From Roseivivax halodurans JCM 10272 (GTDB taxonomy: Bacteria; Pseudomonadota; Alphaproteobacteria; Rhodobacterales; Rhodobacteraceae): a DNA stretch of 38,977 nt. Below, piece after piece: positions 1,951-38,977 of this stretch (within the stretch, counting starts at the first letter, position 1; each line of letters opens with the position of its first letter). Below the pieces are notes generated by a model. That model was not told where the DNA came from, did not search any database, and saw only the letters and a list, made by a program, of their open reading frames with translations. The stretch is taken from NCBI RefSeq assembly GCF_000521785.1, contig NZ_JALZ01000024.1, positions 1 through 38,977 of the forward strand, in the 5' to 3' direction. A program made the position numbers and the translations under genes.

Positions 1951-1968
1951 TTCCATGAAATCAGTCGG

Positions 1969-20947: not shown

Positions 20948-20950
20948 CGC

Positions 20951-21676: not shown

Positions 21677-21679
21677 CGC

Positions 21680-23748: not shown

Positions 23749-24509
23749 CTCGGAACCTCCATTGAGCGGAACTTGCGTTCTTCGGCGAGAGTGGCGGCAT
23801 CGACGACCCCGAGCTGACCCCCGTTGACCCCAGCGGCCGCTTCGAGACGCCAGATCTGCGTGAGGATGATGCCAAGCTCCGCGGTGACACGGGTGTTGAG
23901 ATCGACCGCCGCCTTGAGGCCCTCCTGGTCGTCGATGAGCCCGACCATGGTCTCCAGGCGGTCGAGGCTCTCTCCCGCCTCAACGTGACTGGTCTCGGCC
24001 GCCACCGAGAGCATGGCGCTCGCACCGACCTGTGTGGCGATCCTCTTGTCCGCCGGCTGCACACTTTCCGAAAGCGAGGTGAGGCGCTCCTGGGTGAAGC
24101 CCGATCCGGAAAGAACACGTTCAACCACAACGCCGAGATCTGCCTCAGGGCGAAAGCCTCCCAGGAAGTCGCCGGCGGCGAGCGCTTCCACGGTGCCGAG
24201 CGGCGCTGTCAGCTTGCCGCGTACTCGCTGGAACTCTGCAACGCTTGCGAAAAGCCCGCCTAGTTCGTTGCCCTCCACAAGGGCGGAGAGCTGGGCCTCA
24301 AGGTTCACAAGCTGGGCCGATTGCGTCTCGAATTGCTGGCGCATCGTCGCCAGCTGCTCGAGCTGGATGGTCAGATCTTCTGCCATGTGATCGAGCTGCA
24401 GGACCAGTTGCCGCAATTGGGCATTGTCGAAGGTCGGGACACCCTGGGCGAGGGCCGGGGCGCCGGAGAGGCCGCCAAACATACATGAGAGAAAGAGCCA
24501 GCGTCTCAC
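23745..24509 (-). CDS. virB5: VirB5-like pilus component
   Basis: The 254-residue protein begins with a signal peptide ending in PALAQGVPT. It continues as a helical, coiled-coil-rich chain (LRQLVLQLDHMAEDLTIQLE, then QLATMRQQFETQ), which is typical of VirB5/TrbJ proteins that sit at the pilus tip. The C-terminus is EERKFRSMEVPR. The preceding gene product has matching ends (AQGVPT and ERDFMRMEVGR) around a transglycosylase domain. The start overlaps that gene's stop (ATGA). Confidence 0.85.
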   Translation of the reverse strand: MRRWLFLSCMFGGLSGAPALAQGVPTFDNAQLRQLVLQLDHMAEDLTIQLEQLATMRQQFETQSAQLVNLEAQLSALVEGNELGGLFASVAEFQRVRGKLTAPLGTVEALAAGDFLGGFRPEADLGVVVERVLSGSGFTQERLTSLSESVQPADKRIATQVGASAMLSVAAETSHVEAGESLDRLETMVGLIDDQEGLKAAVDLNTRVTAELGIILTQIWRLEAAAGVNGGQLGVVDAATLAEERKFRSMEVPR

Positions 24510-25612: not shown

Positions 25613-25800
25613 CGACCCGGTTCGATCGGTTCGAAAACGCAGTCTTTGCGGCTGTATTCCTCCGCCGCGAAGGTCAGCAGCGCAATGGCACTGCGCCCGA
25701 CCACAGGCGCGCCATCTGCGCCGAAACATGGCGAGGTGGCCTCGGTGTATTTCTCGCAGGCGGCGAGGATCAGAAGAAGACCGGCGAGGGTCAATCGCAT
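25609..25800 (-). CDS. virB7: VirB7-like lipoprotein
   Basis: The 63-residue product begins MRLTLAGLLLILAACEKYTE, a lipoprotein signal with the modified cysteine at position 15. It ends in a short soluble part with further cysteines (SPCFGADGAPV and SRKDCVFEP). VirB7 lipoproteins of similar size anchor VirB9 in the outer membrane. It overlaps virB4 by ten bases and the next gene by four. The name rests on size, lipobox and position, not on a strong sequence signature. Confidence 0.7.
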   Translation of the reverse strand: MRLTLAGLLLILAACEKYTEATSPCFGADGAPVVGRSAIALLTFAAEEYSRKDCVFEPIEPGR

Positions 25801-28223
25801 GCCGCCCTCCAGAACTCCGGGTCAGCGCGCCAGTCCGGTGAAAAACAGGCCTCGCCCGTGGCACCGCCCCCCAAGACCCGCAGAAGGGGCCCCAGGGCGG
25901 AGAGGTCGGCATCGACGAAGACGCTGTCCCCAGCCGACCGCACGAGCGCAATCCGTTGGCCTGCTGTTGTGCGGGTGAGCAGCGCCGCTTCCTTGTCGTT
26001 GACCTTCAAGAGGTCGTAATCTGTCGGGGCGCCGCGGTCGTTGGGAAAGAGGATCTGCGTTGGCACGGTCTCCACGATAGTCTTGCCGACACGGGAGGAG
26101 GCGAGCTGACCGGGATATTGGGTCAGCATGACCACCACAGCGTTCATCTTCCGGAGCGTGACCAGCCAGTTCTCAAGTCGGATCCCAAAATATGGATCGT
26201 CGAGAAGTTTCCAGGCCTCGTCGAGGACAATGAGGGTCGGGCGCCGATCCTCGACAAGTCTCTCGATCCGCCGGAGGATATAGGACAGTACCGCCGTCCG
26301 CTCCGTGGTCATGTCGAGGATCTCGGTCATGTCGAAGGCGACGATCTCACCGGAAAAATCGACGCTTACGCCGATCTCGGCCTCATCAAAGACCCAACCG
26401 AAACGCCCGCCCGGTGCCCATTCCGCAACGCGGGCACTGAGCTCGCCCTGATCGTCCAGCGGATGGAAGAGCGTCTGGAAGGACACAAAGCGCTGCAGCG
26501 TCGACCCCGCGCCGGCGTTCTGAGACACCGCGCTCTGAACGTGACGTGTCTGTTCACCGGAGAGCGTGCCGGCTCGCGACAAGAGTGTTGTGAGCCAATC
26601 CGAGAGCCAGGCCTGCCCCCGTTCATCGGTTTCGGTCTGAAGCGGGTTGAGGCCGGTCGGAAGACCGGCGCGGATCTCATTGTAACGACCGCCCAGGGCA
26701 CGAACCGCCATTTCGAAACCACGATCCTTGTCAAAGAGGAAGAGTCGCGCACCAACCCGCTGCGTCTGGGCTGCCAGAAACATCGTGGTCAGGGTCTTGC
26801 CGCTGCCCGTGCGGCCGAGAACGAGCGTATGCCCTACAGTCGGTTCGCTTTGCGCCGATCCAGGTTCGTGGAAGCTGAACCGGTAGGCAGCAGAGCCGAC
26901 ACTGGGCAGGATTGTCATTGGCGTTCCCCAGGGCGTCTGGCCCGCATCCCGCCCTGTGACGCTGCCGTGCAGCGCGGAGAAATCGGCGAAGTTGATCGTC
27001 GAGATCGGGGTCCGGCGCGCGCGGTAGGCAAAGTTCCCAGGCGCTTGCGCAAAGTAAGTGGCCTTCAGCGCCATGGTCTCTCGGACGATGACCGCCATTA
27101 TTTCCTGGCCAAGCCGCTTGATCTCGGCAGCGGCGTGTTCAAGCTCCTCGCGCGTTTCCGCATAGATGGCGATTGATAAATGATGATCCCCGAAGGCGAT
27201 CCGGCCTGCCTCCTGATCGTCGGCAGCCTCGAGAAGCTGCTCGCGGAGCGAGACTGCAGCATCTTCGGCGGCCCGCATCTGACGGACAATGCGCTGGATG
27301 CGCTCGGCCATGATGTTCGCCGGGATGGGCGTGAAGGAGTTGGTGAGAACGATATCCAGTGGCAAATCTAGCCCGTCCATGACCATGGCATCTGTGAGCG
27401 CCGGGTAGGACTTGATGCTGAAGAGCGCCCCCAAGCGGGGCCGGCCAGTGGTCGCGCAGTCGATCCGGATCGTGTCGGTCTCGAAGGTCGCCCGACAGGT
27501 CCCAAGACAATGGGCGAGGGGCAGGGGAGAACAAGGGGCCGCGATCGGCGCGAATTGGCCCGAAAGCAGCGCTCCGAGGAAGCCGAGCCATTCGCCACCC
27601 TCCCGGGTCAAACGCTTCGGGTGTGCGACGGAGAGCGCGGTTTCGAAGAAGCCGGTGACTTCATTCAACTGGCGTGCGCGGGCCGTCTTGTCCTTGACCC
27701 AGGCGCGTTTTGCGAGAGCGCCGAGAAGCGGGATGCGCGCTCCGATATCGGGACGCCGCAGGATGCTGAAATATATCCGGGGTGTTTTGGGGGCGAGTTC
27801 GCGGAGATGGTGCTGCCAGCGCCGATCAATTTCCGCGGCAAAGTTCTCGCCCGGGACGGCGGGAAGCCCGACCTTCTGCGGCACGGTGATCCGGTGGACG
27901 TAGAACCCAAAGGCATTGCCGGTCTGCGCGACGATCGCTGCTACCGCTCGTTTCAGGGCATCGAGATCACCATCCGGGGTCGTCAGGGCCGAGAGGCCGT
28001 GGAGGCCAAGCGTCGCCATGAGACTCCCGTCCCGGAGCACGATGAGGTCCCGCTCGTGAAACGCGACAAAGGGCAGGTGCTCGGACAGGTGGCTCTCGAG
28101 CGTTGCGGGTCCGCCGCCTGTGGCGAGAAGCGCGCGGCCGGGGAGCGCATACCGAAACCCGTCAAGCGCCAAAGCTGTCGCCTCCGTGCCGCGCGCGGTT
28201 CCTCGTCGCCCTGACAACACCAT
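25791..28223 (-). CDS. virB4: VirB4 secretion ATPase
   Basis: VirB4 is the largest energiser of the channel. About 810 residues are read from the ATG at 28223. The C-terminal half holds Walker A (LVLGRTGSGKTLTTMFL), RPTLIVLDEAWKLLDDP (Walker B) and MLTQYPGQLASS. The N-terminal half is the CagE/TrbE/VirB4 domain (with LTNSFTPIPANIMAERIQRI). The start is uncertain because the gene overlaps virB3: a GTG at 28232, the ATG at 28223, and a TTG at 28172 with GGAGG eight bases upstream are all in frame. The TTG start would shorten the protein by 17 residues. Confidence 0.93.
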   Translation of the reverse strand: MVLSGRRGTARGTEATALALDGFRYALPGRALLATGGGPATLESHLSEHLPFVAFHERDLIVLRDGSLMATLGLHGLSALTTPDGDLDALKRAVAAIVAQTGNAFGFYVHRITVPQKVGLPAVPGENFAAEIDRRWQHHLRELAPKTPRIYFSILRRPDIGARIPLLGALAKRAWVKDKTARARQLNEVTGFFETALSVAHPKRLTREGGEWLGFLGALLSGQFAPIAAPCSPLPLAHCLGTCRATFETDTIRIDCATTGRPRLGALFSIKSYPALTDAMVMDGLDLPLDIVLTNSFTPIPANIMAERIQRIVRQMRAAEDAAVSLREQLLEAADDQEAGRIAFGDHHLSIAIYAETREELEHAAAEIKRLGQEIMAVIVRETMALKATYFAQAPGNFAYRARRTPISTINFADFSALHGSVTGRDAGQTPWGTPMTILPSVGSAAYRFSFHEPGSAQSEPTVGHTLVLGRTGSGKTLTTMFLAAQTQRVGARLFLFDKDRGFEMAVRALGGRYNEIRAGLPTGLNPLQTETDERGQAWLSDWLTTLLSRAGTLSGEQTRHVQSAVSQNAGAGSTLQRFVSFQTLFHPLDDQGELSARVAEWAPGGRFGWVFDEAEIGVSVDFSGEIVAFDMTEILDMTTERTAVLSYILRRIERLVEDRRPTLIVLDEAWKLLDDPYFGIRLENWLVTLRKMNAVVVMLTQYPGQLASSRVGKTIVETVPTQILFPNDRGAPTDYDLLKVNDKEAALLTRTTAGQRIALVRSAGDSVFVDADLSALGPLLRVLGGGATGEACFSPDWRADPEFWRAACD

Positions 28224-28440
28224 AGGAGACACGGATCACCTCAAAGACATGCGGCTCCTTGGCCGCGACGATCCACAGCACCGGATAGGCAAGAGCTCCG
28301 GCGAGGAAGAACACGAAGGACTTCGTCCAGATGAAGGGCAGAACGACACCGAGGGCCAGAACGACGAGGTAGCCGACGGGAAGCCCGAGATATTTTGGGG
28401 ATCGGGCGAGACCGAGGAAAAGCGGGGATTGCTGGGCCAT
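28162..28440 (-). CDS. virB3: VirB3 inner-membrane protein
   Basis: The 92-residue product has the VirB3 pattern: SPLFLGLARSPKYLGLPVGY, then two membrane segments (YLVVLALGVVLPFIW and VFFLAGALAYPVLWIVA) and a basic tail. VirB3 works with VirB4 in pilus assembly. It follows virB2 by four bases and overlaps virB4 at its 3' end. Confidence 0.92.
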   Translation of the reverse strand: MAQQSPLFLGLARSPKYLGLPVGYLVVLALGVVLPFIWTKSFVFFLAGALAYPVLWIVAAKEPHVFEVIRVSYGVVRATRNRARHGGDSFGA

Positions 28441-28444
28441 GGGA

Positions 28445-28732
28445 TCAGGTGAACCCCGCCACTATGGTGCCAGCCGAGAAGATCAGAACAATCCCGATGA
28501 CGACGGAGGCAAACCAGCCCCAGTTGAGGCGACCCATCATGCACATGAACCCTGTCCCGATCACGGCAAGCGTGGCGACGGCGATACCGATCGGTCCCGT
28601 GAGGGCGGCCTCGACCGTCTCGAGCATGTCCTGGATCGGTGAGAGGTCCTGGGCCATTGCCGGGTCGGTCGATAAAAGCAAAAGTCCGATGAAGGCGGAA
28701 GCGAGGTCGGAAGCTTTTCGGTTCATCCTCAT
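28445..28732 (-). CDS. virB2: VirB2 pilin
   Basis: The 95-residue precursor has a signal peptide ending in DPAMA (about residue 27). Two hydrophobic segments follow (IGIAVATLAVIGTGFMCMMG and FASVVIGIVLIFSAGTIVAG), the pattern of TrbC/VirB2 pilins. The processed protein of about 68 residues would form the conjugative pilus. It lies directly before virB3. Confidence 0.92.
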   Translation of the reverse strand: MRMNRKASDLASAFIGLLLLSTDPAMAQDLSPIQDMLETVEAALTGPIGIAVATLAVIGTGFMCMMGRLNWGWFASVVIGIVLIFSAGTIVAGFT

Positions 28733-28752
28733 ATCCCCGCCCTCCGACCCCT

Positions 28753-29352
28753 CTAGTCGAGCCCCAGCACAACCGCTGTTCGGCCGGGAGGGATAAGTGC
28801 TCCTTGGGCTGGGCGGGGCGACGTGCGGGCCGACACTCGTGCGCGGATGTTATGTATGCGTGCAATGTAGCGGTGGGTTTCGGGAAACGGCGGCACTCCC
28901 CCATATCGGATGACGCGATGCGGCCCGGCGTTGTAGGCGGCGAGCGCGTGATCGATATCTGCGAAGGCCTCGAGTTGGCTGAGCAGATACCGGGCAGACC
29001 CGTCGAGATTCTGCGCGATGTCCCGGCGGTCGATACCAAGCGCCCGCGCGGTTTCCGGCATGAGCTGGCCGAGGCCAAAAGCCCCTTTCGGGCTCATGGC
29101 CGCCGGGCGGTAGGCGCTTTCGGCTTCGATCAGCGCGCGGAAGAGGGCGTGCCAGTCTTCGGCGTCGAGCCCCACCGGCCCAAGCGCCCGGTTCTGTGCG
29201 TGCCGTAACGAGGTTGCCCGAATGGCGTCGAGAATGTCGGCGTGTCCTGGATTGGCGAGCTTGGCGGATATCAATGGGGAGGCCTGTGCAGACGGCCCGT
29301 GGCGATGCCAGCCTTCAGTTGTTCTTGTGCTTCCGTCCGGACGGAACACCAT
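28753..29352 (-). CDS. virB1: VirB1-like lytic transglycosylase
   Basis: The soluble domain is clear: FRALIEAESAYRPAAMSPKG with the catalytic glutamate (78 from the ATG used here), then FGLGQLMPETARALGIDRRD and HALAAYNAGPHRVIRYGGVP. It would locally cut peptidoglycan for the secretion channel. The start is a problem. The ATG at 29352 gives 199 residues without a signal peptide. The same frame just upstream reads VAICVLAATTLLPSAPRAEV, a good signal peptide, but the nearest conventional start there is a TTG at 29397 in mid-signal, and an ATC sits at 29433. The start codon may have been lost, or a rare start is used; the open frame continues to 29580. Confidence 0.82.
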   Translation of the reverse strand: MVFRPDGSTRTTEGWHRHGPSAQASPLISAKLANPGHADILDAIRATSLRHAQNRALGPVGLDAEDWHALFRALIEAESAYRPAAMSPKGAFGLGQLMPETARALGIDRRDIAQNLDGSARYLLSQLEAFADIDHALAAYNAGPHRVIRYGGVPPFPETHRYIARIHNIRARVSARTSPRPAQGALIPPGRTAVVLGLD

Positions 29353-29671
29353 CACCTCCGCCCGGGGTGCTGAGGGCAATAGTGTAGTCGCTGCCAAAAC
29401 ACAGATTGCGACCGTCGCCGAACTCGTGGTGATGCTTGAAGAGCCCTGGCCAGATGTTGAAGAGCCGCGCTTCAGGCCCGTAGGGGCCGAAACGGGTGGA
29501 AACCAGCACCGCTTCCGGTTCTCTCTCGCGGAGATAGACGCATTGGTAGCGGGGCTTTCCATCGTCCGTGAACCCGACAAGCTCGTACCGACAGCGGAAG
29601 TCGACTCCCGACCCGATGAGGTCCTTCACCCCATCGATTGTAATCAAGATTTGGTCTCTCGCGATCGGCAC
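29315..29671 (-). CDS. Unknown small protein at the head of the virB operon
   Basis: I do not recognise the family. The 118-residue product begins MPIARDQILITIDGVKDLIG and contains CRYELVGFTDDGKPRYQCVY and LFKHHHEFGDGRNLCFGSDY. It has no signal peptide or membrane segment. The alternation of charged and aromatic residues looks like a real folded protein. Its 3' end overlaps the transglycosylase gene in another frame. It is the first gene of the operon, so it could be a regulator or small cytoplasmic accessory, but nothing in the sequence proves a role. Confidence 0.55.
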   Translation of the reverse strand: MPIARDQILITIDGVKDLIGSGVDFRCRYELVGFTDDGKPRYQCVYLREREPEAVLVSTRFGPYGPEARLFNIWPGLFKHHHEFGDGRNLCFGSDYTIALSTPGGGDGVPSGRKHKNN

Positions 29672-29732
29672 CGGGCACCCCCACTGGGAGCCCTTCTACA
29701 TTTGGCAGGAAAGCGCGCAAAGACACCGCTTA

Positions 29733-29752
29733 GCAATATGTAATATTGTGCG
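29733..29752. promoter_or_regulatory. Dyad in the divergent promoter region of the virB operon
   Basis: GCAATATGTAATATTGTGCG lies in the 125-base gap between the virB operon (minus) and the TrbM-like gene (plus). It contains the perfect dyad CAATAT-GTA-ATATTG and matches 11784-11803 at 17 of 20 positions. A shared transcription factor is likely; the MobC-like protein is one candidate. Confidence 0.65.
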
Positions 29753-29796
29753 ATACGTAATTTGGGCAAGAATACGCTTAAGGTTCGGAGGTGCTC

Positions 29797-30372
29797 ATGA
29801 GAGTCCCAAAACTGGTAGCCGTCATTCTGCTCGTGTCCTCATTGTTCACGACAAAAGCGGCCCGCGCCTACGACATGGATTGCGCCATCATGCTCTGCAT
29901 GGCGGGTGGGTTTCCCTCGAGCGATGTTTGCGCAGAAGCCTATGCCGAGATGATCCGCCGGATCACACCCTGGCCGGTTCAGCCGCCTTTTGGCGTCTGT
30001 TCGTTCTCCGGGCCCGTCCCACTTGGCGGTGCGTCCGGGGAGCGGGAGCTCGACATCTCAACGCCGGATTATGCCTGGCTTCGCCGGACGCGGGTCCTCT
30101 GGTGGAGGAGCCGCCATTGGGGCAACCGCACGGAGGGCACGGAGTATTGGTCCTGGTCTCTGCGGTCCTGCGATCACGAGATCCGCAATTGCCGCATCCT
30201 CAGCCGCCGTTACAGCTCGACCACACCGTGGCCGGCCAGCTTTGTGACTGAACACGGCCAGGTTATCACACCCCCCGAAAATGCAGGCCGATGGTTCTCG
30301 AACCGCGCCGTGAGGGTCGAGTACGGGGATTACGAGGGTAAGATCAATCACTCGGATTGGGTCCGGTACTGA
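29797..30372 (+). CDS. TrbM-like secreted conjugation protein
   Basis: From the ATG at 29797 (GGAGG five bases before it) the protein has 191 residues. A signal peptide (about 1-24, with LVAVILLVSSLFTTKAARA) precedes a cysteine-rich segment (DCAIMLCMAGGFPSSDVCAE, then FGVCSF). This resembles TrbM/KikA proteins, which are secreted or periplasmic helpers of conjugation. The second half is aromatic-rich (RVLWWRSRHWGNRTEGTEYW). The gene is transcribed away from the virB operon and shares its promoter region, including the 20-bp dyad, which supports a transfer role. Confidence 0.65.
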   Translation: MRVPKLVAVILLVSSLFTTKAARAYDMDCAIMLCMAGGFPSSDVCAEAYAEMIRRITPWPVQPPFGVCSFSGPVPLGGASGERELDISTPDYAWLRRTRVLWWRSRHWGNRTEGTEYWSWSLRSCDHEIRNCRILSRRYSSTTPWPASFVTEHGQVITPPENAGRWFSNRAVRVEYGDYEGKINHSDWVRY

Positions 30373-30557
30373 TCCCGGGGATCCGGTAGATCGCGTTCGA
30401 CAATCAGGTCTGGGGAGATGTCGTCCGGCTTGACCTCCCAAGACTGCGTGTGGAGCCCCGTATTCCAGACATGTTTGAGCCAAACCGTTCGATCTTCGCC
30501 ATCCAGCGGAAGATAACCCTCTCGAACGGGCACACCGTATATCAGGCGATCAGACAT
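30348..30557 (-). CDS. Unknown small protein
   Basis: I do not recognise it. The ATG at 30557 gives 69 residues starting MSDRLIYGVPVREGYLPLDG, and containing VWLKHVWNTGLHTQSWEVKP. The composition is protein-like, with no membrane segment. It follows the broken gene at 30588-30927 on the same strand by 30 bases, and its 3' end overlaps the convergent TrbM-like gene by 25 bases. Treat as hypothetical. Confidence 0.45.
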   Translation of the reverse strand: MSDRLIYGVPVREGYLPLDGEDRTVWLKHVWNTGLHTQSWEVKPDDISPDLIVERDLPDPRDQYRTQSE

Positions 30558-30587
30558 GGACCGATCTGCCCGCGCCCGCCAGCGCAT

Positions 30588-30927
30588 TCAGAGCACGATG
30601 CGCTGCAGATCGTGAGAAGCGCCAGCGTCCGTTTCGAGCGGCTCGGATGAGAGTAAGGACCCGGCGCGTTCGAGCTTTCCCAGCCGGCAATGCACGGCGT
30701 CGGCATAAAGAGCAGCGCTTTTCCTGGATTTGCGAATTCCAAGCTTCGTGGGGATCAGGCAAAAGCGCGCGGTGGGTTCCCGGCTGGACTGGGAACATTC
30801 TCGCATGAGGCACCACGAGGCTGACCAGAGATGCTGGGACAAACGGGTTGGTGTCCTCGGTTCCGACCATGAGACTATTCTCGAACAGTCCATCAAGGGT
30901 TGTGCCATCATACAGAGATACACGCAA
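30588..30927 (-). pseudogene. Frameshifted gene of unknown family
   Basis: One frame reads RVSLYDGTTLDGLFENSLMV and on to VVPHARMFPVQ, from a TTG at 30927 down to about 30790. Another frame takes over with SREPTARFCLIPTKLGIRKS, then ALYADAVHCRLGKLERAG, and ends at a stop at 30588. Each half looks like protein only in its own frame, so a single-base insertion or deletion near 30790 probably broke one gene of about 110 residues. The 5' end may also be missing, because no ATG precedes the first half. Confidence 0.45.
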
Positions 30928-31386
30928 AATGCGAGCGTGGTGTTTTTCTCAGGCGGAAATATGCCATGCGCCGAGGTCGGAAAAGCGACGGTTGTCGAAT
31001 GTATGCGAAAGCGACTCGATTCCACGGATTTCGAGATCTTGTGGGGAGGCAGTGCCGAGCAATCCTCACCCAGCTGCCAAGCATTTCGACCCAAAGCGAA
31101 CCTTCGACGCGCCCCGCGCAAGTGCCTGCTATGCGGACAAAGCTACCGCGCGAGGTCGAACAGTCGATGAATGCTTACAACCCGAAAACCAAAAACGTAT
31201 CGAGCGCCGAAACGCCCGTTGCCGGGCATTCTGATCCGTAGGGCTCCCGTGGCATCCGTCCCTTGCCGCTGGCAAAGTAGAACCGGTCGCAAAAACTGTC
31301 CGCGAAGCCGGGTTTTGCGTGTTAGCAAAGTCGCGACCGGCGGTGTGTCACCGCCAGACCCTTGATGCAGTGCGGATGGACTGAGA
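30928..31386. promoter_or_regulatory. Gap before the Lrp-type regulator with nested inverted repeats
   Basis: I see no gene in most of this stretch. The last 100 bases before the regulator are structured. CCGGTCGC (31283-31290) pairs with GCGACCGG (31333-31340). Inside, CGCAAAA (31288-31294) can pair with TTTTGCG (31313-31319). GGCGGTG-TGT-CACCGCC forms a perfect 7-bp hairpin at 31339-31355. The first two overlap and would be alternatives. They may be operator dyads or a regulated leader; no known riboswitch class is recognisable to me. Confidence 0.4.
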
Positions 31387-31878
31387 ATGAAAAGGATTGG
31401 TCTCGACGCGACCGACATTCGCATCCTGTGCGCGGTGCAGCAATACGGGCAGCTGAGCAAGGGAAAGCTGGCCGAGATTGCCAACATATCGGCAACGCCG
31501 TGCTGGGCTCGTCTGGACCGGCTAAAGGCGGCGGGTCTGATCCGGGGCTATTACGGCGACATCGCGATCGACAGGCTCTGCGATCTGACGCAGGTCGTGG
31601 TCACCGTATCGCTGACCCATCATCGCAAGGCCGACTTTGACAGGTTCGAGGCCTTTGTCATGGGCCGGGACGAGATCACAGAGTGCATCGCGACAGGCGG
31701 CGGCATGGATTACGTGCTGAAAGCCGTCAGTTCCAGTCTTACATCGTTTCAAGCGCTGATGCAGGCGATGCTGGATGCCGAAGTGAGTGTGGACCGATAC
31801 ATGACCTACATCGCGACTCGTACCGTCAAGGCAGGTCGGCCAAACCTTGCCAAACTGGCGAGAAAAGACGTCGGCTGA
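31387..31878 (+). CDS. Lrp/AsnC-family transcriptional regulator
   Basis: The 163-residue protein has an N-terminal helix-turn-helix (residues about 6-55: LDATDIRILCAVQQYGQLSK, then GKLAEIANISATPCWARLDR). A ligand-binding RAM domain follows (QVVVTVSLTHHRKADFDRFE and ITECIATGGGMDYVLKAV). Such regulators often sense an amino acid or a pathway intermediate and control the neighbouring operon. It lies 161 bases upstream of, and in line with, the methylated-sulfur operon, so it is the likely local regulator. It differs a little from typical Lrp in the recognition helix (TPCWARLDRL), which resembles the subfamily near catabolic operons. Confidence 0.88.
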   Translation: MKRIGLDATDIRILCAVQQYGQLSKGKLAEIANISATPCWARLDRLKAAGLIRGYYGDIAIDRLCDLTQVVVTVSLTHHRKADFDRFEAFVMGRDEITECIATGGGMDYVLKAVSSSLTSFQALMQAMLDAEVSVDRYMTYIATRTVKAGRPNLAKLARKDVG

Positions 31879-31960
31879 CACGCTCAGACCAAACGATACA
31901 AATTCTGCCCGAAAATTAGCCCGTCCAGTCTGGAACTGCCGGTTTTTCAGACCGAGCGTG
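31879..31960. promoter_or_regulatory. Inverted repeat region upstream of the DmdA-like operon
   Basis: CACGCTC (31879-31885) and GAGCGTG (31954-31960) are exact inverted copies about 68 bases apart. They lie between the regulator and the operon, in an A+T-richer stretch. Lrp-type proteins bind spaced sites and wrap DNA, so these could be regulator sites. GGAGG lies nine bases before the start at 32040. Confidence 0.35.
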
Positions 31961-32039
31961 CCCATCTTTCGAACCTAAATTCGCCGCAGGTTCAGTCGAT
32001 CCCGGCCCATCCGGCCGGTGGCGCAGGAGGGGAAACAGA

Positions 32040-33179
32040 ATGCACGCAGACGACTTCGGCTTTGGCACACAGATCCGGAAATCACCCTTTTTCGACGCCA
32101 CCGTACGGTGGGGTGCAAAGGGTTTTTCCGTCTACAACCACATGTATATCCCGCGCGATTTCGGCGATCCGGAACAGAACTTCTGGAACCTCGTCAACGA
32201 CGCGATCCTGTGCGACGTGGCTGTGGAACGCCAGGTCGAAATCACCGGCCCCGATGCGGCACGCTTCGTGCAGATGCTGACTCCGCGCGATCTGTCGAAG
32301 ATGGCCGTCGGCCAGTGCAAATATATCCTCATCACGAATGCCGAGGGCGGCATCCTCAACGATCCGATCCTGCTGCGCCTGGCCGAGAACCACTTCTGGA
32401 TTTCGCTGGCCGACAGCGACATCCTGCTGTGGGCACAGGGCGTCGCCGTGCATTCAGGCCTTGGCGTCACGATCAGTGAACCTGACGTGTCGCCGCTGCA
32501 ACTTCAGGGCCCGAAGTCCGGCGAAATCATGCAGGCCCTGTTCGGTGACAGTATCCTTGACCTGAAATACTACTGGCACCGCGAACTTGAACTGGACGGC
32601 ATCCCGCTGCTTGTGTCGCGAACCGGCTGGTCCAGCGAGTTGGGCTACGAGATCTATCTGCGCGACAGTGCGTATGGCGATGCGCTGTGGGAACGCATCA
32701 TGGTAGAGGGCATGGCCTTTGGCCTGAAGCCGGGCCATACCTCCTCGATCCGCCGGATCGAAGGCGGGATGCTGTCCTATCATGCGGACGCGGATATCAA
32801 GACGAACCCCTACGAGCTGGGACTCGACCGCCTCGTGGATCTCGACGTCGAGGCCGATTTCATCGGCAAAGCCGCGCTGCGCCGCATCCGCGATCAGGGT
32901 GTCACCCGCATGCAGGTCGGCGTGATCATCGACGGTGCGCCACTGCAACGTCCGAACACCACCTTCTGGCCGATCAAGAGTAACGGCGCGCAGATCGGCA
33001 AGGTCACATCGGCGGTCTATTCGCCCCGGCTGGAACGGAACATTGCCTTGGCAATGGTAGAGGTCGCCCATGCGCAGATCGGGACCGAGGTCGAGGTCAT
33101 GATGCCGTCCGGGCCGACCCGAGCAACCGTCGTGGAGCGGCCGTTCTACGATCCCAAGAAGAAACTCGCCGCCGCCTAA
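32040..33179 (+). CDS. DmdA-like GcvT-family methyltransferase
   Basis: The 379-residue protein is of the glycine-cleavage T-protein fold, which transfers a methyl or methylene group to tetrahydrofolate. The segments FSVYNHMYIPRDF, CDVAVERQVEITGPDAARFV, QMLTPRDLSKMAVGQCKYI and ISLADSDILLWAQGVA closely recall DMSP demethylase (DmdA). The later ERIMVEGMAFGLKPG and SIRRIEGGMLSY, with KTNPYELGLDRLVDLD, are also typical of the broader group. It could demethylate DMSP or another methylated S- or O-compound. The operon context (CoA ligase, crotonase, methanethiol oxidase) favours sulfur. GcvT paralogues without DMSP activity are common, so I give no gene symbol. Confidence 0.8.
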   Translation: MHADDFGFGTQIRKSPFFDATVRWGAKGFSVYNHMYIPRDFGDPEQNFWNLVNDAILCDVAVERQVEITGPDAARFVQMLTPRDLSKMAVGQCKYILITNAEGGILNDPILLRLAENHFWISLADSDILLWAQGVAVHSGLGVTISEPDVSPLQLQGPKSGEIMQALFGDSILDLKYYWHRELELDGIPLLVSRTGWSSELGYEIYLRDSAYGDALWERIMVEGMAFGLKPGHTSSIRRIEGGMLSYHADADIKTNPYELGLDRLVDLDVEADFIGKAALRRIRDQGVTRMQVGVIIDGAPLQRPNTTFWPIKSNGAQIGKVTSAVYSPRLERNIALAMVEVAHAQIGTEVEVMMPSGPTRATVVERPFYDPKKKLAAA

Positions 33180-33208
33180 TCGGCCCGGCTCATCAAGAGA
33201 TCCGACCT

Positions 33209-33679
33209 ATGTCCGACCTTTCGATCCAGTTGCACTGGCAGCGTGCGGAACCTGCACTGATGACCGGCAAGTATTCCAGCGCACACACCGTGCAATTCAA
33301 CAAGGATTGCGAGATCTGCGTGGACGCCGCCCCCGATTGGGGCGGCGATCCGGCCCATACCAACCCCGAACAGGCGCTCGCCTCGGCGCTGTCCAGTTGC
33401 CACATGATGACCTTTCTGGCGCTGGCGGCCAAGGCGGCTTGGCCTGTGGCCAGCTACAGCGATCTTGCGGTCGCGTACCTTGGCAAGAATGCGCGGGGCC
33501 AGATGTCGGTGACACGGATCGATCTGCACCCGGTGGTGCGGTTCGACACCGGCTTTTCGCCATTGGAGGCCGAGTTGGACAAGATGCAGCACCGCGCGCA
33601 TCGCTACTGTTTCATCGCCAACACGCTGGCAGACAGCGTGGAGATTAATATTCTTCACCCCGCACACGCGGGGGCCTGA
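33209..33679 (+). CDS. OsmC-family protein
   Basis: The 156-residue product has the OsmC/Ohr fold. GGDPAHTNPEQALASALSSC precedes the helix HMMTFLALAAKAAWPV, and the second cysteine lies in AHRYCFIANTLADSVEIN. The paired cysteines are those that reduce peroxides in the family. It starts 29 bases after the DmdA-like gene and ends five bases before the next. In this operon it could remove hydrogen peroxide or organic peroxides made by the methanethiol oxidase, or handle a reactive sulfur intermediate; the choice is inference. Confidence 0.85.
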   Translation: MSDLSIQLHWQRAEPALMTGKYSSAHTVQFNKDCEICVDAAPDWGGDPAHTNPEQALASALSSCHMMTFLALAAKAAWPVASYSDLAVAYLGKNARGQMSVTRIDLHPVVRFDTGFSPLEAELDKMQHRAHRYCFIANTLADSVEINILHPAHAGA

Positions 33680-33683
33680 TGCC

Positions 33684-34484
33684 ATGCTGAAGGCCGACAT
33701 CCTGACGCACGAACTGGACGCCGACGGCATCCTGCGTCTGACCCTGAACGACCCCGCGCGGCGCAACGCGCTGTCAGAGGCGATGCTGTCGGAACTGGCG
33801 GCCGCCTTTGCAGGGGCCGCTGCCGATCCTGCGATCCGGGTCATCGTGTTTGCCGCGAAGGGGCCCGCTTTCTGTGCGGGTCACGACCTGAAGGAAATGA
33901 CCGCAGGCCGCAGCGGTTCGGACGCGGGCCGCGCCTATTTCGCGCAGGTTCTCACGCAATGCTCGGGCGTCATGCAGGGCATCGTCACCTGCCCGAAACC
34001 AGTCATCGCCGAGGTGACGGGCGTGGCCACCGCCGCAGGCTGCCAGCTTGTCGCCAGCTGCGACCTTGCCATTGCCGCCGACACGGCGACGTTCAGCACC
34101 CCCGGTGTTCACATCGGGCTGTTTTGCTCGACCCCCATGGTCGCCCTGTCGCGCAACGTGGCCGCCAAACACGCGATGGAAATGCTGCTGACCGGCGACA
34201 TGATCCCGGCGGACCGCGCGGTAGAAATGGGGTTGATTAACAGGTCCGTCGCGATCGATGACCTGCGAGACACCACGATGGAGCTGGCGCGCAAGATCGC
34301 GTCGAAATCCAGCATGACGCTGGCGACCGGCAAGCGCGCCTTCTACGCGCAGCGCGACATGACGCTGTCAGACGCCTACGACTACGCCACGCAGGTCATG
34401 GTCGACAACATGCTGGCCCGCGACGCAGAAGAAGGCATCGGCGCCTTCATTGCCAAACGCGCCCCCGCTTGGCAGGGCGCCTGA
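33684..34484 (+). CDS. Crotonase-fold protein lacking the usual catalytic glutamates
   Basis: The 266-residue protein has the enoyl-CoA hydratase/isomerase fold. AKGPAFCAGHDLKEM (58-72) and VTGVATAAGCQLVASCDLAI (111-130) form the oxyanion-hole regions, and TFSTPGVHIGLFCSTP follows. The two positions where active hydratases carry glutamate hold glutamine 121 and glycine 141. This resembles the ECHDC3-like branch. The methylthioacryloyl-CoA hydratase DmdD also belongs to the crotonase fold but needs its glutamates, so this is unlikely to be a standard DmdD. It could be a thioesterase, an isomerase or a hydratase with other chemistry. It is spaced by one base from the ligase gene. Confidence 0.85.
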   Translation: MLKADILTHELDADGILRLTLNDPARRNALSEAMLSELAAAFAGAAADPAIRVIVFAAKGPAFCAGHDLKEMTAGRSGSDAGRAYFAQVLTQCSGVMQGIVTCPKPVIAEVTGVATAAGCQLVASCDLAIAADTATFSTPGVHIGLFCSTPMVALSRNVAAKHAMEMLLTGDMIPADRAVEMGLINRSVAIDDLRDTTMELARKIASKSSMTLATGKRAFYAQRDMTLSDAYDYATQVMVDNMLARDAEEGIGAFIAKRAPAWQGA

Positions 34485-34485
34485 A

Positions 34486-36177
34486 ATGACGGACGCGAAC
34501 CCCTACAACATCGGGCTCGACCGCAACCCCGCGAACCATCAGCCGCTCACTCCGCTGACCTTTCTGGAACGCGCGGCCAGCGTGTTTCCGGAGCATACGG
34601 CCATCGTGCATGGCGCGCTGCGGCGTAGTTATGCTGATTTCTACCGACGGTCGCGGCAGTTGGCGTCGGCGCTGACGCAGGCGGGGATCGGGCGCGGGGA
34701 TACGGTCTCGGCCCTGCTGGCCAACACGCCGGCAATGCTGGAATGCCACTACGGCGTGCCGATGTGCGGCGCGGTGCTGCATTCGATAAATACGCGACTG
34801 GATGCGGCGATCATCGCGTTCCAGCTGGATCACGCCGGCGCAAAGCTGGTGATCGTGGACCGCGAATTCATGCCACTGATGCAGGATGCGCTGGCGCTGA
34901 CGGCGGTGAAACCGGTTCTGATCCAATACGACGACCCGGAATTCACTGAACCGTTTGCCGCTGGAGATGCCTTCGACTACGAGGCTTTCGTGGCGGGTGG
35001 CGCGCCTGATTTCGCTTGGCTCATGCCGCTGGACGAATGGGATGCCATCGCGATCAATTACACCTCTGGCACGACCGGCGATCCGAAGGGCGTGGTGTCG
35101 CATCATCGCGGGGCCTGCCTGCTGGCACAGGGGAACGCGCTGACGGCGTCCATGCCGAAACATGCGTTCTATCTGTGGACGCTGCCGATGTTCCATTGCA
35201 ACGGCTGGTGTTTTCCCTGGACGCTGTCAGCCATCATCGGCACCCATGTCTGCCTGCGACAAGTCCGGGCCGAACCGATCTGGGCAGCACTCGCCGATGA
35301 GGGCGTGACCCACCTGTGCGGCGCACCGATCGTCATGTCGCTGATGATCCAGGCCCCCGCGGCGGCAAAACGCGAGCTGCATCACAACGTGCAGTTTTTT
35401 ACCGCCGCCGCCCCGCCGCCCGAAAAGGTGTTGGCGGACATGAAGACAGCGGGTTTCGATGTTGTCCACCTTTATGGGCTGACCGAAACCTACGGCCCTG
35501 CGGTCGTCAACGACTGGCACGACAGCTGGTCCGAACTGCCGCTTGCCGAACAGGCGCGTCTGAAATCCCGGCAAGGCGTGCGCTATCTGCCGCTGGAACA
35601 GCTCGACGTGCTGGACCCTGACACGATGCTGCCCGTTCCGCGCGACGGCCAGACGATGGGCGAGGTCATGTTTCGCGGAAACGTCGTGATGAAAGGCTAT
35701 TTCCGCAATCCGCAGGCAACGCAGGAGGCCTTTGCCGGGGGCTGGTTCCATTCCGGCGACCTTGGCGTCATGCACCCCGACGGATATATCCAGCTCAAGG
35801 ATCGATCCAAGGACGTCATCATCTCTGGTGGCGAGAACATCTCCTCAATCGAGATCGAAGAGGTGCTGTATCGTCACCCCGACGTGGCCGTCGTGGCCGT
35901 CGTCGCCATGCCGCACGACCGGTGGGGCGAAACGCCTTGTGCCTTTGTCGAGCTGTCAGAGGGGGCCGACATGGACCCGGACCAGCTTCGGGATTGGTGC
36001 CGCAACCATCTGGCGGGGTACAAGGTGCCGGGTCGGATCGCCTTCATGCCGATCCCGCGCACCACGACGGGAAAGATCCAGAAGTTCGTGCTGCGCGAAC
36101 GGGCACGTGCGCTGGCGGCAGAGGGCACCTCGGCAATATCCGCATCCGCCAAAAAGACAAAACACCCTGCTGTTTAA
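34486..36177 (+). CDS. AMP-forming acyl-CoA ligase
   Basis: The 563-residue protein activates a carboxylic acid to its CoA thioester. The AMP-binding motif YTSGTTGDPKGV is at 192-203. FFTAAAPPPEKVLADM and LYGLTETYGPAV follow. WFHSGDLGVMHPDGYIQLKD and RSKDVIISGGENISSIEIEE lead into the C-terminal domain. The catalytic lysine lies in TTTGKIQKFVLRE. N-terminal LDRNPANHQPLTPLTFLERA and MFHCNGWCFPW are typical of the medium-chain acyl-CoA synthetase group that includes DmdB-like enzymes. The start at 34486 follows the previous stop by one base. In context it may activate methylmercaptopropionate, the product of DMSP demethylation; the true substrate is unproven. Confidence 0.88.
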   Translation: MTDANPYNIGLDRNPANHQPLTPLTFLERAASVFPEHTAIVHGALRRSYADFYRRSRQLASALTQAGIGRGDTVSALLANTPAMLECHYGVPMCGAVLHSINTRLDAAIIAFQLDHAGAKLVIVDREFMPLMQDALALTAVKPVLIQYDDPEFTEPFAAGDAFDYEAFVAGGAPDFAWLMPLDEWDAIAINYTSGTTGDPKGVVSHHRGACLLAQGNALTASMPKHAFYLWTLPMFHCNGWCFPWTLSAIIGTHVCLRQVRAEPIWAALADEGVTHLCGAPIVMSLMIQAPAAAKRELHHNVQFFTAAAPPPEKVLADMKTAGFDVVHLYGLTETYGPAVVNDWHDSWSELPLAEQARLKSRQGVRYLPLEQLDVLDPDTMLPVPRDGQTMGEVMFRGNVVMKGYFRNPQATQEAFAGGWFHSGDLGVMHPDGYIQLKDRSKDVIISGGENISSIEIEEVLYRHPDVAVVAVVAMPHDRWGETPCAFVELSEGADMDPDQLRDWCRNHLAGYKVPGRIAFMPIPRTTTGKIQKFVLRERARALAAEGTSAISASAKKTKHPAV

Positions 36178-36244
36178 TTCCGGGATAGGCTCGGACCGAG
36201 GAGATCGAGATAGGCCAAAGACATTTTCAAGGGAGGAACGACCA

Positions 36245-37645
36245 ATGAACCTGAGACCGGATCCAACGTTTCACGCAACCCCGAAACTTGCCATGGAGGC
36301 CCCGCCCGAAACGCTGGCTTTCACACTGATGCTCAGCCCGGACGGATCGCAACCCGACGGACTGGCAGTCGTCGACGTGGACCCCGCGTCCGACACCTAC
36401 GGCCAGATCGTCCACCAGGTGATCATGCCCAACACCGGCGACGAGTTTCACCATTTCGGCTGGAATGCCTGTTCTGCGTCCCTCTCGCCCTTGTCTGGCC
36501 ACGCCTTTCTGGAGCGCCGCTACCTGATCATTCCCGGCATCCGGTCGTCGCGTATCTATATCATCGACGTGAAAGAACCTTTGAAGGCGAAAATCCACAA
36601 GATCATCGAACCAGAGGAGGTCTTTTCCAAGACCGGCTATTCGCGCCCTCACACGATCCACTGCGGACCCGAAGGCATCTACGTCTCGACCCTGGGCGGA
36701 GGCGGCGAGGACGGGACCGACGGCCCTCCGGGCATCTTTATCATGGACTGCGAAACCTTCGAGATCCTCGGCCGCTACGAGATGGACCGAGGAAAGCAGG
36801 ACAAGCACTATGATTTCTGGTGGAACCTGCCGCGCGACTACATGATCAGTTCGGAATGGGGCCTGCCGCCGCAGTTCGAGAACGGCGTCGTGGCAGAGGA
36901 CCTTCTGGCCAACAAATACGGCCATTCCATCCACTTCTGGAACCTGCGCGCGCGCCAGAATGTCCAGACCATCGATCTGGGCGAGAATTACCAGATGGCG
37001 CTGGAAATCCGCCCGGCGCATGACCCGTCGAAAGACTACGGTTTCTGCGGCGTCGTGGTGGACACGACGAACCTGCAAGGCGCAATCTTCACATGGTGGC
37101 AGAGGGACGACGACACGTTCGAGACCAAGAAGACCATCACCATCGACCCGCGCCCGGAAGACCCGGAAAATCTGCCGCCCTTGCTGAAAGGCTTCGGCGC
37201 GGTGCCACCGCTGGTCACCGACATCGACCTGAGCCTTGATGACAAATATCTCTATGTCGCGTGTTGGGGCCTGGGCGAGATGCATCAATACGACGTCACC
37301 GACCCGATGAACCCCAAATTGACCGGCAAGGTCGAACTGGGCGGCATCGCGCGAGGGACGAAGCATCCCAACGGAAAGACCTTCGCCTACGCCCCGCAGA
37401 TGGTCGAGATCAGCCGTGACGGCAAGCGTGTCTACTGGACCAACTCGCTCTACTCCACGTGGGACGACCAGTTCTATCCGGATGACGAAGGCGGACAGAT
37501 GGTGATGGCGAATGTGGGCGAAAATGGCGGCCTGACGCTGGACAAGGATTTCTTTGTCGAATTCCCGAAAGGATACCGCAGCCACCAGATCCGGCTGGAA
37601 GGCGGCGACTGCTCGACCGACAGCTTCTGTTATCCGTCGGCGTAA
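36245..37645 (+). CDS. mtoX: SBP56-family protein, probable methanethiol oxidase
   Basis: The 466-residue protein is a selenium-binding-protein-56 homologue, the family of copper-dependent methanethiol oxidases (methanethiol to formaldehyde, hydrogen sulfide and hydrogen peroxide). The conserved cysteine motif is seen in EFHHFGWNACSASLSPLSGH (cysteine 76, histidines 69-70). SRPHTIHCGPEGIYVSTLGG, KYGHSIHFWNLRARQNVQT and the C-terminal RSHQIRLEGGDCSTDSFCYP follow. Length is normal. I see no signal peptide, whereas a characterised bacterial enzyme is periplasmic, so location may differ. GGAGG lies nine bases before the ATG. The electron and copper partners often found beside mtoX (SCO1/SenC, MauG) are not in this window. 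Confidence 0.88.
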   Translation: MNLRPDPTFHATPKLAMEAPPETLAFTLMLSPDGSQPDGLAVVDVDPASDTYGQIVHQVIMPNTGDEFHHFGWNACSASLSPLSGHAFLERRYLIIPGIRSSRIYIIDVKEPLKAKIHKIIEPEEVFSKTGYSRPHTIHCGPEGIYVSTLGGGGEDGTDGPPGIFIMDCETFEILGRYEMDRGKQDKHYDFWWNLPRDYMISSEWGLPPQFENGVVAEDLLANKYGHSIHFWNLRARQNVQTIDLGENYQMALEIRPAHDPSKDYGFCGVVVDTTNLQGAIFTWWQRDDDTFETKKTITIDPRPEDPENLPPLLKGFGAVPPLVTDIDLSLDDKYLYVACWGLGEMHQYDVTDPMNPKLTGKVELGGIARGTKHPNGKTFAYAPQMVEISRDGKRVYWTNSLYSTWDDQFYPDDEGGQMVMANVGENGGLTLDKDFFVEFPKGYRSHQIRLEGGDCSTDSFCYPSA

Positions 37646-37651
37646 CGCGGG

Positions 37652-38308
37652 ATGGACATGACGACGGCAACGGCCCTTTGGTGGGCCGTTGTGGCCTCTG
37701 GCGTATATCACGGGATCAATCCGGGGATGGGGTGGCCACTGGCTGTCTCTGCCGCGCTGATGGACCGAACGCCGCGCAGCCTGATCAAGGCGGTCGGTGC
37801 CCTTGCCGCGGGGCACCTGCTGGCCATGGGGGCCATCCTGTTTCCGTTCACCGCCCTGATGTTCGTGGCGCAGTGGCAGCGCGAAATCCAGATCACCGCG
37901 GCCTGTCTGGTAATCGGGCTTGGCGTCTGGCTGGTCTTCAACCGCCGTCATCCGCGTTTTCTGGCGCGGGTGCCGCCGTCCCGCTTGGCGCTGTGGTCGT
38001 TTCTTGCGGCCATGGCGCATGGTGCGGGCCTGATGCTGGTACCGATTTATCTGGGCATCTGCCAGACGGTCGACACCGACGCTGGGCACGCCGCGGCCCA
38101 AGCCCTGATGAGCGCCAACGCCGGGATCGCGGTCGGCGTGGCGCTGATCCACACGCTGGCGATGACGCTCTCGGGCGGGCTGATCGCCTTCGGCGTCTAC
38201 AGGTGGTTCGGGCTGAAGTTTCTGTCCAGAAGCTGGTTCAATCTAGATCTTGTCTGGGCAACAAGCCTCATTCTTGTCGGTGCAATATCGCTTCTTGTTG
38301 CGGTCTGA
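37652..38308 (+). CDS. Polytopic membrane protein, possible metal or small-molecule transporter
   Basis: The 218-residue product has about six membrane segments, including TATALWWAVVASGVYHGINP, LAAGHLLAMGAILFPFTALM and WSFLAAMAHGAGLMLVPIYL. Polar histidine-bearing motifs (YHGINPGMGW, AMAHGAGL and ALIHTLAM) lie in or beside the membrane. Such intramembrane histidines are seen in metal transporters, so copper supply to the neighbouring oxidase, or sulfur-compound transport, is conceivable. I do not recognise a named family. It starts six bases after the oxidase stop, and is the last gene of the operon. ATG at 37658 is an alternative start. Confidence 0.7.
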   Translation: MDMTTATALWWAVVASGVYHGINPGMGWPLAVSAALMDRTPRSLIKAVGALAAGHLLAMGAILFPFTALMFVAQWQREIQITAACLVIGLGVWLVFNRRHPRFLARVPPSRLALWSFLAAMAHGAGLMLVPIYLGICQTVDTDAGHAAAQALMSANAGIAVGVALIHTLAMTLSGGLIAFGVYRWFGLKFLSRSWFNLDLVWATSLILVGAISLLVAV

Positions 38309-38670
38309 CGTGATGTCGTTTTTGCTTTTTTCGCCAGATCATCATCGACGCCACTCACTTTGGTCGAGCATGATCGAAAGCACGCGCAATATCACTTTAT
38401 TTTAGCGTCATATCGCTCGAAAAAATGGACACGCCGGCCGCGCCAAGCACACGCGTTTATTTTGATTCTGCAGTGTCTGATTCCAGCGAAAAGCAAACGA
38501 TGTTGAAATCGAGGCATTGGTCAATAAGGGCTCGAAGTTGACCCTCGCCGAGCGGCCAACGAATGGCGGCACTGGCATTTCACTATGCCGCTTTGTCGCG
38601 CGGGCAACCCTGACGGGATCAGGACACTAGGTTGTCCCCACGGCGTGTTCCAAAACGCGGCATTATGCGA
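38309..38670. other. Gene-free gap after the sulfur operon
   Basis: I see no gene here on either strand. A T-rich stretch (TTTTTGCTTTTTT, about 38319-38331) follows the last gene but without a clear stem. The right part up to the palindrome at 38671 looks like debris of lost sequence. Confidence 0.3.
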
Positions 38671-38692
38671 CTTATGCTGATATCGGCATAAG
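38671..38692. other. Near-perfect 22-bp palindrome at the ArdC break point
   Basis: CTTATGC (38671-38677) and GCATAAG (38686-38692) are exact inverted arms around the 8-bp centre TGATATCG, itself nearly symmetrical (one mismatched pair). The spacing resembles a tyrosine-recombinase core site or an element end. The truncated ArdC frame opens inside it. Confidence 0.45.
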
Positions 38693-38977
38693 GCCCACGC
38701 GACAAAGGCATCCCACCGGCTCGATCGGAGCTTCGGCGCGTCGAGTTTCGGTAAGGAGGCATATGCTAAGGAGGAGTTGGTGGCCTGCTTTTCCGAGGCA
38801 TTGATTGGCCAGCGCATGAGGTTCTACGCCGATCACATCGACAACCACGCGGCGTATATCGACTCGTGGATCAAGATGCTGAAGGGCGATACGCGGTTCC
38901 TGTTCACCGCGGGGGCGCACGCGCAGCGCGCCGTTGACTGGCTGGTCGCTGCGCCGGAGACAGGCGCGAAACAGATG
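38681..38977 (+). pseudogene. ArdC-like antirestriction protein, 5'-truncated and cut by the window end
   Basis: The frame opens after a TGA at 38678-38680 and is still open at the window end. It reads HATKASHRLDRSFGASSFGK, then EAYAKEELVACFSEALIG, DHIDNHAAYIDSWIKMLKGD and TRFLFTAGAHAQRAVDWLVA. This is the C-terminal zincin-like metallopeptidase part of ArdC/DUF1738 proteins, which protect incoming plasmid DNA from restriction. The HExxH-like site is represented only by its second half, so the single-stranded-DNA-binding N-terminal domain and part of the active site are missing. It is probably a remnant cut at the palindrome. Confidence 0.7.

Follow-up and report, generated by a model that had tools for sequence, protein, structure and literature searches.

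A plasmid operon joining a relative of the DMSP demethylase to a predicted methanethiol oxidase in Roseivivax halodurans

What does a plasmid operon do that sets a relative of the dimethylsulfoniopropionate (DMSP) demethylase DmdA in line with an SBP56-family protein? We addressed this question for one stretch of DNA, here called the window: positions 1 to 38,977 (38,977 nucleotides) of contig NZ_JALZ01000024.1 from the marine-type bacterium Roseivivax halodurans JCM 10272 (assembly GCF_000521785.1). A preliminary description of the window had proposed an operon for methylated sulfur that runs from demethylation of DMSP, an osmolyte of algae, to oxidation of methanethiol, a foul-smelling thiol. 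The reading that we favour, with a rough probability of 0.6, is that this plasmid operon serves the catabolism of a small S-methylated sulfonium carboxylate, for which DMSP or one of its near analogues is the most probable compound. For DMSP itself as the main substrate the odds are slightly below even, and release of the thiol without DmdC is a tentative suggestion that we would sooner bet against. These weights are rough and are not mutually exclusive.

The operon and its link to methanethiol

Six genes lie in line on the forward strand. They encode a GcvT protein that is a sister of DmdA and a predicted folate-dependent S-demethylase (32040–33179; Pfam GCV_T and GCV_T_C), an OsmC-family protein with both family cysteines (33209–33679; Pfam OsmC), an ECHDC3-type crotonase (33684–34484; Pfam ECH_1), a PRK08162-type acyl-CoA ligase (34486–36177; Pfam AMP-binding; its start is taken as the ATG at 34486, internal to a listed open reading frame of 34450–36177), an SBP56 protein (36245–37645; Pfam SBP56, 577 bits) and a multi-pass membrane protein (37652–38308). 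The gaps between them are 29, 4, 1, 67 and 6 bases. An Lrp/AsnC-family regulator (31387–31878, forward strand; Pfam HTH_24 and AsnC_trans_reg) ends 161 bases before the GcvT gene and is likely to control the operon. Positions, strand and gaps (1–67 bases) agree with the preliminary description of six adjacent genes behind an Lrp-type regulator, as do the Pfam families of all but the membrane protein. The latter matched no family in Pfam, NCBIfam or PHROGs, and its AlphaFold model has a mean predicted local distance difference test score of 58.9. A promoter scan predicted no promoters, and a search for repeats in 28500–38977 found no long pair flanking it.

Is this gene order a chance arrangement? 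A search for the GcvT protein in 390 Rhodobacterales genomes gave two groups among the matches listed: 64–100% identity in 73 genomes (R. halodurans included), and 48% or less for the others. A partial match of 72% in one genome (G063) was left out of these 73 carriers. Three sets of loci were compared, namely the 72 loci of the other carriers, the best 80 of 560 relatives' loci, and four plasmid loci; the sets are partly redundant, with 27 GcvT cores identical between them, and by length and coordinates loci L088 and L228 appear to be the same contig. An Lrp-type gene (a match on the same strand, at most 1 kb before the GcvT gene) was found at 58 of the 72 carrier loci, and OsmC, crotonase and ligase genes followed GcvT at 45, 47 and 43 of them, respectively, with all three at 37. 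Among the best 80 of 560 the regulator was present in 78 and the three enzymes together in 43, while the plasmid loci had the regulator in 4/4 and all three in 4/4. Some loci hold Lrp and GcvT genes without the remaining operon genes, and the surroundings of the Lrp–GcvT–OsmC–crotonase–ligase loci are otherwise variable. The neighbourhood search suggested in the preliminary description thus shows that the gene order recurs, and the identical seven-gene order is found in Loktanella salsilacus DSM 16199 (L228), Seohaeicola (L230), Thalassococcus (L240) and a genome bin (L241), so that it is not due to chance. One genome (G314) has four equal-scoring places for the GcvT gene (contigs C12, C26, C34 and C41), through either real amplification or assembly duplication.

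Among the matches listed, the SBP56 proteins of these genomes form two groups, c1 and c2, which are 80–95% and about 42–45% identical to the window protein, respectively. The latter carries the motifs GWNACS, HTIHC and GGDCS; passages of PMC10936201 give GWNACS, HT(V/I)HC and GGDC(S/T) for cluster-1 methanethiol oxidases of Rhodobacteraceae, and report methanethiol oxidation for two cluster-1 proteins, with sulfane sulfur as a product. All three cysteine motifs were present in 63/63 c1 and 13/13 c2 rows. We predict that the window SBP56 protein is a cluster-1 methanethiol oxidase. It shares all three conserved cysteine motifs with RdMTO and RlMTO, cluster-1 proteins described in the same passages, but, unlike them, it is encoded in line with a demethylase operon and alongside a membrane protein that belongs to no named family. 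The mtoX–SCO1–mauG operon of Hyphomicrobium, with R. pomeroyi SPOA0268–0272 (passages of PMC5739008), likewise has an SBP56 gene, and a further resemblance is an IclR-type regulator, which in c1 and c2 alike adjoins some of the SBP56 genes. In contrast, the window protein scored 113 bits against the Hyphomicrobium-type MtoX model NF052453 (cut-off 650), and its operon has no SCO1 or MauG gene.

Of 129 distinct GcvT proteins, 101 had loci that were scored for SBP56, and 22 of these loci carried such a gene no more than 9.5 kb from GcvT. The other 28 loci were short, showed no SBP56 and were left unscored, which makes the share at least 22/129. On a tree of the 129 proteins this distribution requires 12 or more gains or losses. 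At control loci of other DmdA-family genes (flanks of about 7–8 kb) SBP56 was near in 0/19 (Fisher p 0.02 against 22/101). Genome-wide, 44 of the 73 GcvT carriers had SBP56, compared with 90 of 317 non-carriers (odds ratio 3.8, kinship ignored). A c1 gene lies directly downstream of the GcvT-clade operon in the window and in L088/L228, L093, L096, L230, L240 and L241, on the opposite strand in L132/L295, L152, L157 and L268, and at a greater distance in L129 and L135. Three Mameliella loci (L236, L243 and L260) have a short Lrp–GcvT–SBP56–membrane protein unit, near which OsmC, crotonase and ligase gave no match. SBP56 may adjoin true DmdA operons as well, as in Marinovum, L185 and L186, the last two having been chosen because SBP56 lay near.

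The c2 genes lie near a GcvT-clade gene in L143, L149, L151, L154 and L156–L159. In a second arrangement an IclR-type regulator borders SBP56 (c2)–ferredoxin–CoA-binding protein–(rhodanese)–crotonase–ligase–GcvT; elsewhere the c2 set is joined to the window-type module instead. Identity to the window proteins is about 54% for the crotonase of the second arrangement and about 52% for its ligase, and the two are joined to GcvT in this way at 6 of the 72 carrier loci. On plasmid pP30_b of Phaeobacter inhibens P30 and in L143 the c2 set adds a Blh-like sulfur dioxygenase. On pP30_b a metallo-β-lactamase protein between rhodanese and crotonase scored 367 bits against the dioxygenase portion of Blh, below a cut-off of 625 bits that applies to the whole two-domain protein. 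Rhodanese and dioxygenase fit the sulfane-sulfur product given in the above passages of PMC10936201, and we infer that the c2 gene set on pP30_b encodes a route from methanethiol to sulfane sulfur and on towards sulfite.

Because SBP56 is co-located at 22/101 loci, was gained or lost at least 12 times on the tree and is absent from the controls, we regard a link of the GcvT-clade unit to methanethiol as well supported by gene content and order. The joining of a DmdA-family protein to SBP56 on a plasmid, as first described, stands on the cluster-1 cysteine motifs and on this repeated co-location elsewhere.

The membrane protein is a regular partner of SBP56. Its gene is directly 3′ of c1 SBP56 in 30/30 best-match loci and, in other families, beside SBP56 in 10 of the 11 genomes examined, out of 23 with a match. 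The exceptions are L330 and L273, where it is present with no SBP56 match; in L273 (a Marivita bin) a ligase and then the membrane protein stand about 4.1 kb past the GcvT start, with no SBP56 match between them. In Loktanella salsilacus 1A07899 (L006, 12200–14248) the operon SBP56 was matched over its first 62% only, and an IS3 transposase comes next. In Paracoccus seriniphilus (L332, 6962–9537) the gene after a c2-like SBP56 encodes a DUF2182 membrane protein, and proteins of the PpoB2 copper-chaperone family and DUF1326 precede ligase and DmdA in Marinovum (L009, 5082–6473), with relatives beside DmdA in L182–L186; DUF2182 and PpoB2 are presumably one family. An hhalign comparison (probability 0.1; with so few sequences, a weak test) gave no support to a kinship of the window membrane protein with the Marinovum PpoB2-type protein.

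Points against the reading and the substrate of GcvT

Several observations weigh against the proposed function. No SBP56 gene lay near GcvT in 79 of the 101 scored loci, and 29 of the 73 carriers had no SBP56 at E 1e-60. The first of these counts favours the view that an N-demethylase or fatty-acid unit stands beside SBP56 by accident, as does the resemblance of the GcvT motif SELGYE to the trimethylamine N-oxide (TMAO) demethylase. We consider such an accident very improbable, as the tree requires at least 12 changes, the two SBP56 clades are joined in different arrangements, and the control loci are free of SBP56. In Paracoccus seriniphilus (L013) a crotonase–ligase pair 74–78% identical to that of the window has no GcvT or SBP56 match, in a locus that ends shortly after the ligase; the pair is therefore not specific to the pathway. 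Moreover, the window GcvT clade departs from DmdA at conserved residues that DmdA shares with two sister clades, it falls outside the DmdA clade, and 50 of the 73 carriers hold a second DmdA-like gene, so that the GcvT protein may not serve the substrate of DmdA.

The GcvT protein scored 377 bits against the DMSP-demethylase model NF009133, below the cut-off of 410. Marinovum DmdA (681 bits) and two related DmdA proteins scored 566–681, and five relatives from the window clade or the second arrangement 368–380. On a tree, the DmdA proteins of Pelagibacter and Roseobacter grouped together (support 100) and the window clade stood apart (support 90), as did two further separate clades; the tree was built by a quick method, has a long Pelagibacter branch, and uses a Roseobacter-type DmdA, recognized by NCBIfam score, in place of R. 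pomeroyi DSS-3 DmdA. The phylogeny called for in the preliminary description thus places the protein in a sister clade of its own, outside the DmdA clade, and its assignment as DmdA, the first step of DMSP demethylation, is not upheld.

What distinguishes the pocket of this clade? The comparison used 30 of 75 window-clade rows. KQG at 199–201, common to DmdA (with one R for K) and both further clades, is replaced by SEL in 30/30 rows, which resembles the GEL of TMAO demethylase. Other changes are W58C and P97L (29/30 each) and E238R and G248H (30/30 each). D125, S126, W197 and E204 are retained (the last two in 30/30), as is Y206 in 28/30. A tryptophan is named as the key DMSP contact in DmdA in passages of PMC7487153; by offset, we infer that it corresponds to W197, a position held by Y in 7 of the 8 DmdA rows examined.

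Pocket changes fixed in 30/30 rows, together with the second DmdA-like gene of 50 carriers, would suit a GcvT protein that acts on another sulfonium, such as dimethylsulfonioacetate, DMSP sulfoxide or trimethylsulfonium, and not on DMSP. However, no single compound has a positive sign in its favour, and DMSP is abundant in such habitats; we therefore hold a different sulfonium to be possible, at odds well short of even. Given the same 50 carriers, we rejected the idea that the new clade takes the place of DmdA. R. halodurans itself has no other match to the DmdA model above 101 bits.

Proposed CoA activation and release of methanethiol

How might the operon take its substrate to methanethiol and beyond? 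In the function that we favour, the Lrp-type protein would sense substrate or product, and the GcvT protein would, to judge from its family and retained folate-site residues, pass one S-methyl group to tetrahydrofolate, giving 5-methyltetrahydrofolate. The ligase would convert the demethylated acid into a CoA thioester. For the release of methanethiol there would be two routes: the ECHDC3-type crotonase may act directly on the thioether-CoA, or DmdC and a hydratase from other parts of the genome may do the work. By analogy with two proteins that have the same three cysteine motifs, SBP56 would convert methanethiol into formaldehyde and sulfane sulfur, and the membrane protein might, as a guess, assist SBP56, for instance by handling copper or sulfur.

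The ligase scored 892 bits against the PRK08162 model NF006020 (cut-off 677) and 303 bits against the methylmercaptopropionate (MMPA)-CoA ligase model NF005426 (cut-off 822), so the DmdB-type second DMSP step assigned to it earlier is not supported. As the GcvT protein is also below its cut-off, the view that the operon provides the two opening steps of the DMSP pathway together with its final one lacks support as worded. Ligases 46–48% identical to that of the window adjoin true DmdA (Marinovum) and sister-clade GcvT proteins with a dehydrogenase.

The crotonase scored 398 bits against NF006008 (cut-off 313). Its nearest solved structure is 2vx2 (presumably the human ECHDC3 protein), with which it shares ATAAGCQLVASCD and GLFCSTP. 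It was rightly called atypical: Q121 and G141 replace both glutamates of DmdD, the positions having been equated by motif and with DmdD itself outside the alignment. At least 95% of 63 crotonase rows have Q121 and G141; AAGCQL occurs in 62 of the 63 relatives and G at the second site in 56, with 7 unmatched by the pattern. DmdD needs Glu121 and Glu141, according to passages of PMC3660561.

The operon indeed has no DmdC, as first described, yet a DmdC candidate is encoded elsewhere in the same genome (956 bits to 6ijc, which we take to be DmdC). This candidate had no match in the 72, 80 and 4 loci (156, partly overlapping) and was matched at 4/19 control loci. The genome also encodes an AcuI-type gene and a DmdB candidate, with 748 bits to NF005426 (cut-off 822) and 572 bits to 6ihk, which we assume to be DmdB. 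A DmdC-type dehydrogenase is present elsewhere in 70 of the 73 carriers, with none in G108, G210 and G326 (match cut-off E 1e-100), and G108 holds the full module (L141). An AcuI-type reductase was above cut-off in 71 of the 73, and no AcuI-like match was found in the 156 partly overlapping loci. Two of six fetched sister-clade loci, L173 (6874–12033) and L176 (6987–12151), have GcvT, ligase, acyl-CoA dehydrogenase and a crotonase that keeps both glutamates, which together look like a full demethylation set of four genes; with 361 bits, the demethylase of L173 is under the DmdA cut-off. Since these two loci have both the dehydrogenase and the crotonase glutamates and window-type loci have neither, the two features appear to be present or absent together. 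This pairing is consistent with, and at two loci no proof of, methanethiol release free of DmdC.

Two explanations compete over these findings. The operon may supply accessory ends to the textbook pathway, with GcvT as the DMSP demethylase, DmdB, DmdC and the hydratase encoded elsewhere, SBP56 removing methanethiol, and the crotonase–ligase pair unrelated and serving a side product or fatty acids. R. halodurans, with DmdB and DmdC candidates and no second DmdA match, agrees with this, as do the DmdC-type dehydrogenase of 70 carriers and the Mameliella units that have GcvT and SBP56 without OsmC, crotonase or ligase. However, crotonase and ligase are repeatedly joined to GcvT in two arrangements (47/72 and 43/72, and again 6/72), which argues that they act in the same pathway, and the GcvT pocket is unlike that of DmdA; we think this explanation doubtful.

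The other is a shortcut without DmdC, in which the ligase would form methylthiopropionyl-CoA, the crotonase would β-eliminate methanethiol to give acryloyl-CoA, and AcuI would reduce the latter. The absence of the DmdC candidate from all 156 partly overlapping loci, against 4/19 controls, points this way. So do a crotonase without the glutamates that DmdD requires in the cited passages of PMC3660561, the glutamate-bearing crotonases beside the dehydrogenase in L173 and L176, the AcuI-type reductase of 71 carriers, and carrier G108 with its full module and no DmdC match. Yet 70 carriers have DmdC elsewhere, the same passages state that DmdD gave no methanethiol from MMPA-CoA, and the elimination has no known base; moreover, the crotonase–ligase pair also occurs outside this context in L013, and AcuI-like genes are missing from the 156 loci. 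We rate the shortcut, too, as unlikely. A smaller chance still attaches to the specific proposal that the ECHDC3-type crotonase and PRK08162-type ligase expel methanethiol from methylthiopropionyl-CoA, with DMSP or a relative being demethylated and desulfurized without DmdC. Of the "variant or shortcut route" first suggested, the variant enzymes, the lack of DmdC and the unusual crotonase are borne out, whereas the DmdC candidate elsewhere in the genome tells against the shortcut.

Relatives of the OsmC protein keep the first cysteine motif in 57 and the second in 58 of 59 rows. Its supposed task of coping with peroxide from MtoX is doubtful: OsmC follows GcvT at 45/72 carrier loci, any SBP56 is near at 15/72, and according to one of the section headings of PMC10936201, the R. 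pomeroyi methanethiol oxidase produced no H2O2. A role as a specific guard of MtoX was rejected, since OsmC follows GcvT far oftener than SBP56 is near.

Plasmid setting and relation to known systems

Judged from its gene content, the contig is apparently a transferable plasmid, which agrees with its first description as conjugative. It has relaxase and type IV coupling protein genes (12143–16266, forward strand; Pfam Relaxase and T4SS-DNA_transf), type IV secretion genes of VirB11, 10, 9, 8, 6, 5-like and 4 types (18525–28232, reverse strand; Pfam T2SSE, TrbI, CagX, VirB8, TrbL, T4SS and CagE_TrbE_VirB), and two replication systems on the one contig, RepC with a ParA-type protein and an RPA-type initiator with a second ParA-type protein (368–4118 and 6519–9402). 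The plasmid reading stands on these genes. An animal-type haem peroxidase gene (PF03098; 16776–18377, forward strand) separates the gene for the coupling protein from those of VirB type.

Compared with the DmdA–DmdB–DmdC–DmdD/AcuH pathway of Ruegeria pomeroyi, the operon has a demethylase of the same folate-type family, a CoA ligase and a crotonase, and methanethiol as the presumed product; it differs in its sister-clade demethylase, PRK08162-type ligase, glutamate-less crotonase and lack of a DmdC-like gene. Plasmid pMaD9 of Marinovum algicola (ligase–DmdA–alcohol dehydrogenase–SBP56–membrane protein) also joins SBP56 to the membrane protein, with a ligase 48% identical to that of the window, but it has a true DmdA (681 bits) and an alcohol dehydrogenase, a candidate AcuI, with no OsmC or crotonase annotated in its row. 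The Lrp–GcvT–OsmC–crotonase–ligase unit is likewise plasmid-borne on pP30_b, without an adjoining c1 SBP56 and with the c2 operon described above nearby. The pP30_b unit (L331, 7247–13975) is flanked by two tyrosine-recombinase genes and looks cassette-like.

Each part of the operon but the membrane protein falls in a known superfamily, and by sequence comparison its enzymes are related to, and clearly different from, those of the textbook route. No description of its gene set was found in the open-access literature (PMC; subscription papers and preprints lay outside this scope), nor was any paper there that joins ECHDC3 and methanethiol.

Marine surveys of DMSP demethylation usually count dmdA. 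The clade would be a second, widespread demethylase tied to methanethiol oxidation, and also plasmid-borne, which such surveys would miss or misname. In mammals, methionine is also degraded by a transamination pathway, and SELENBP1 is the human methanethiol oxidase. If the crotonase of the operon does expel methanethiol, ECHDC3 would become a candidate enzyme for thiol release in that pathway, upstream of SELENBP1. The operon also offers a concrete test both of methanethiol release without DmdC and of the role of ECHDC3-type crotonases.

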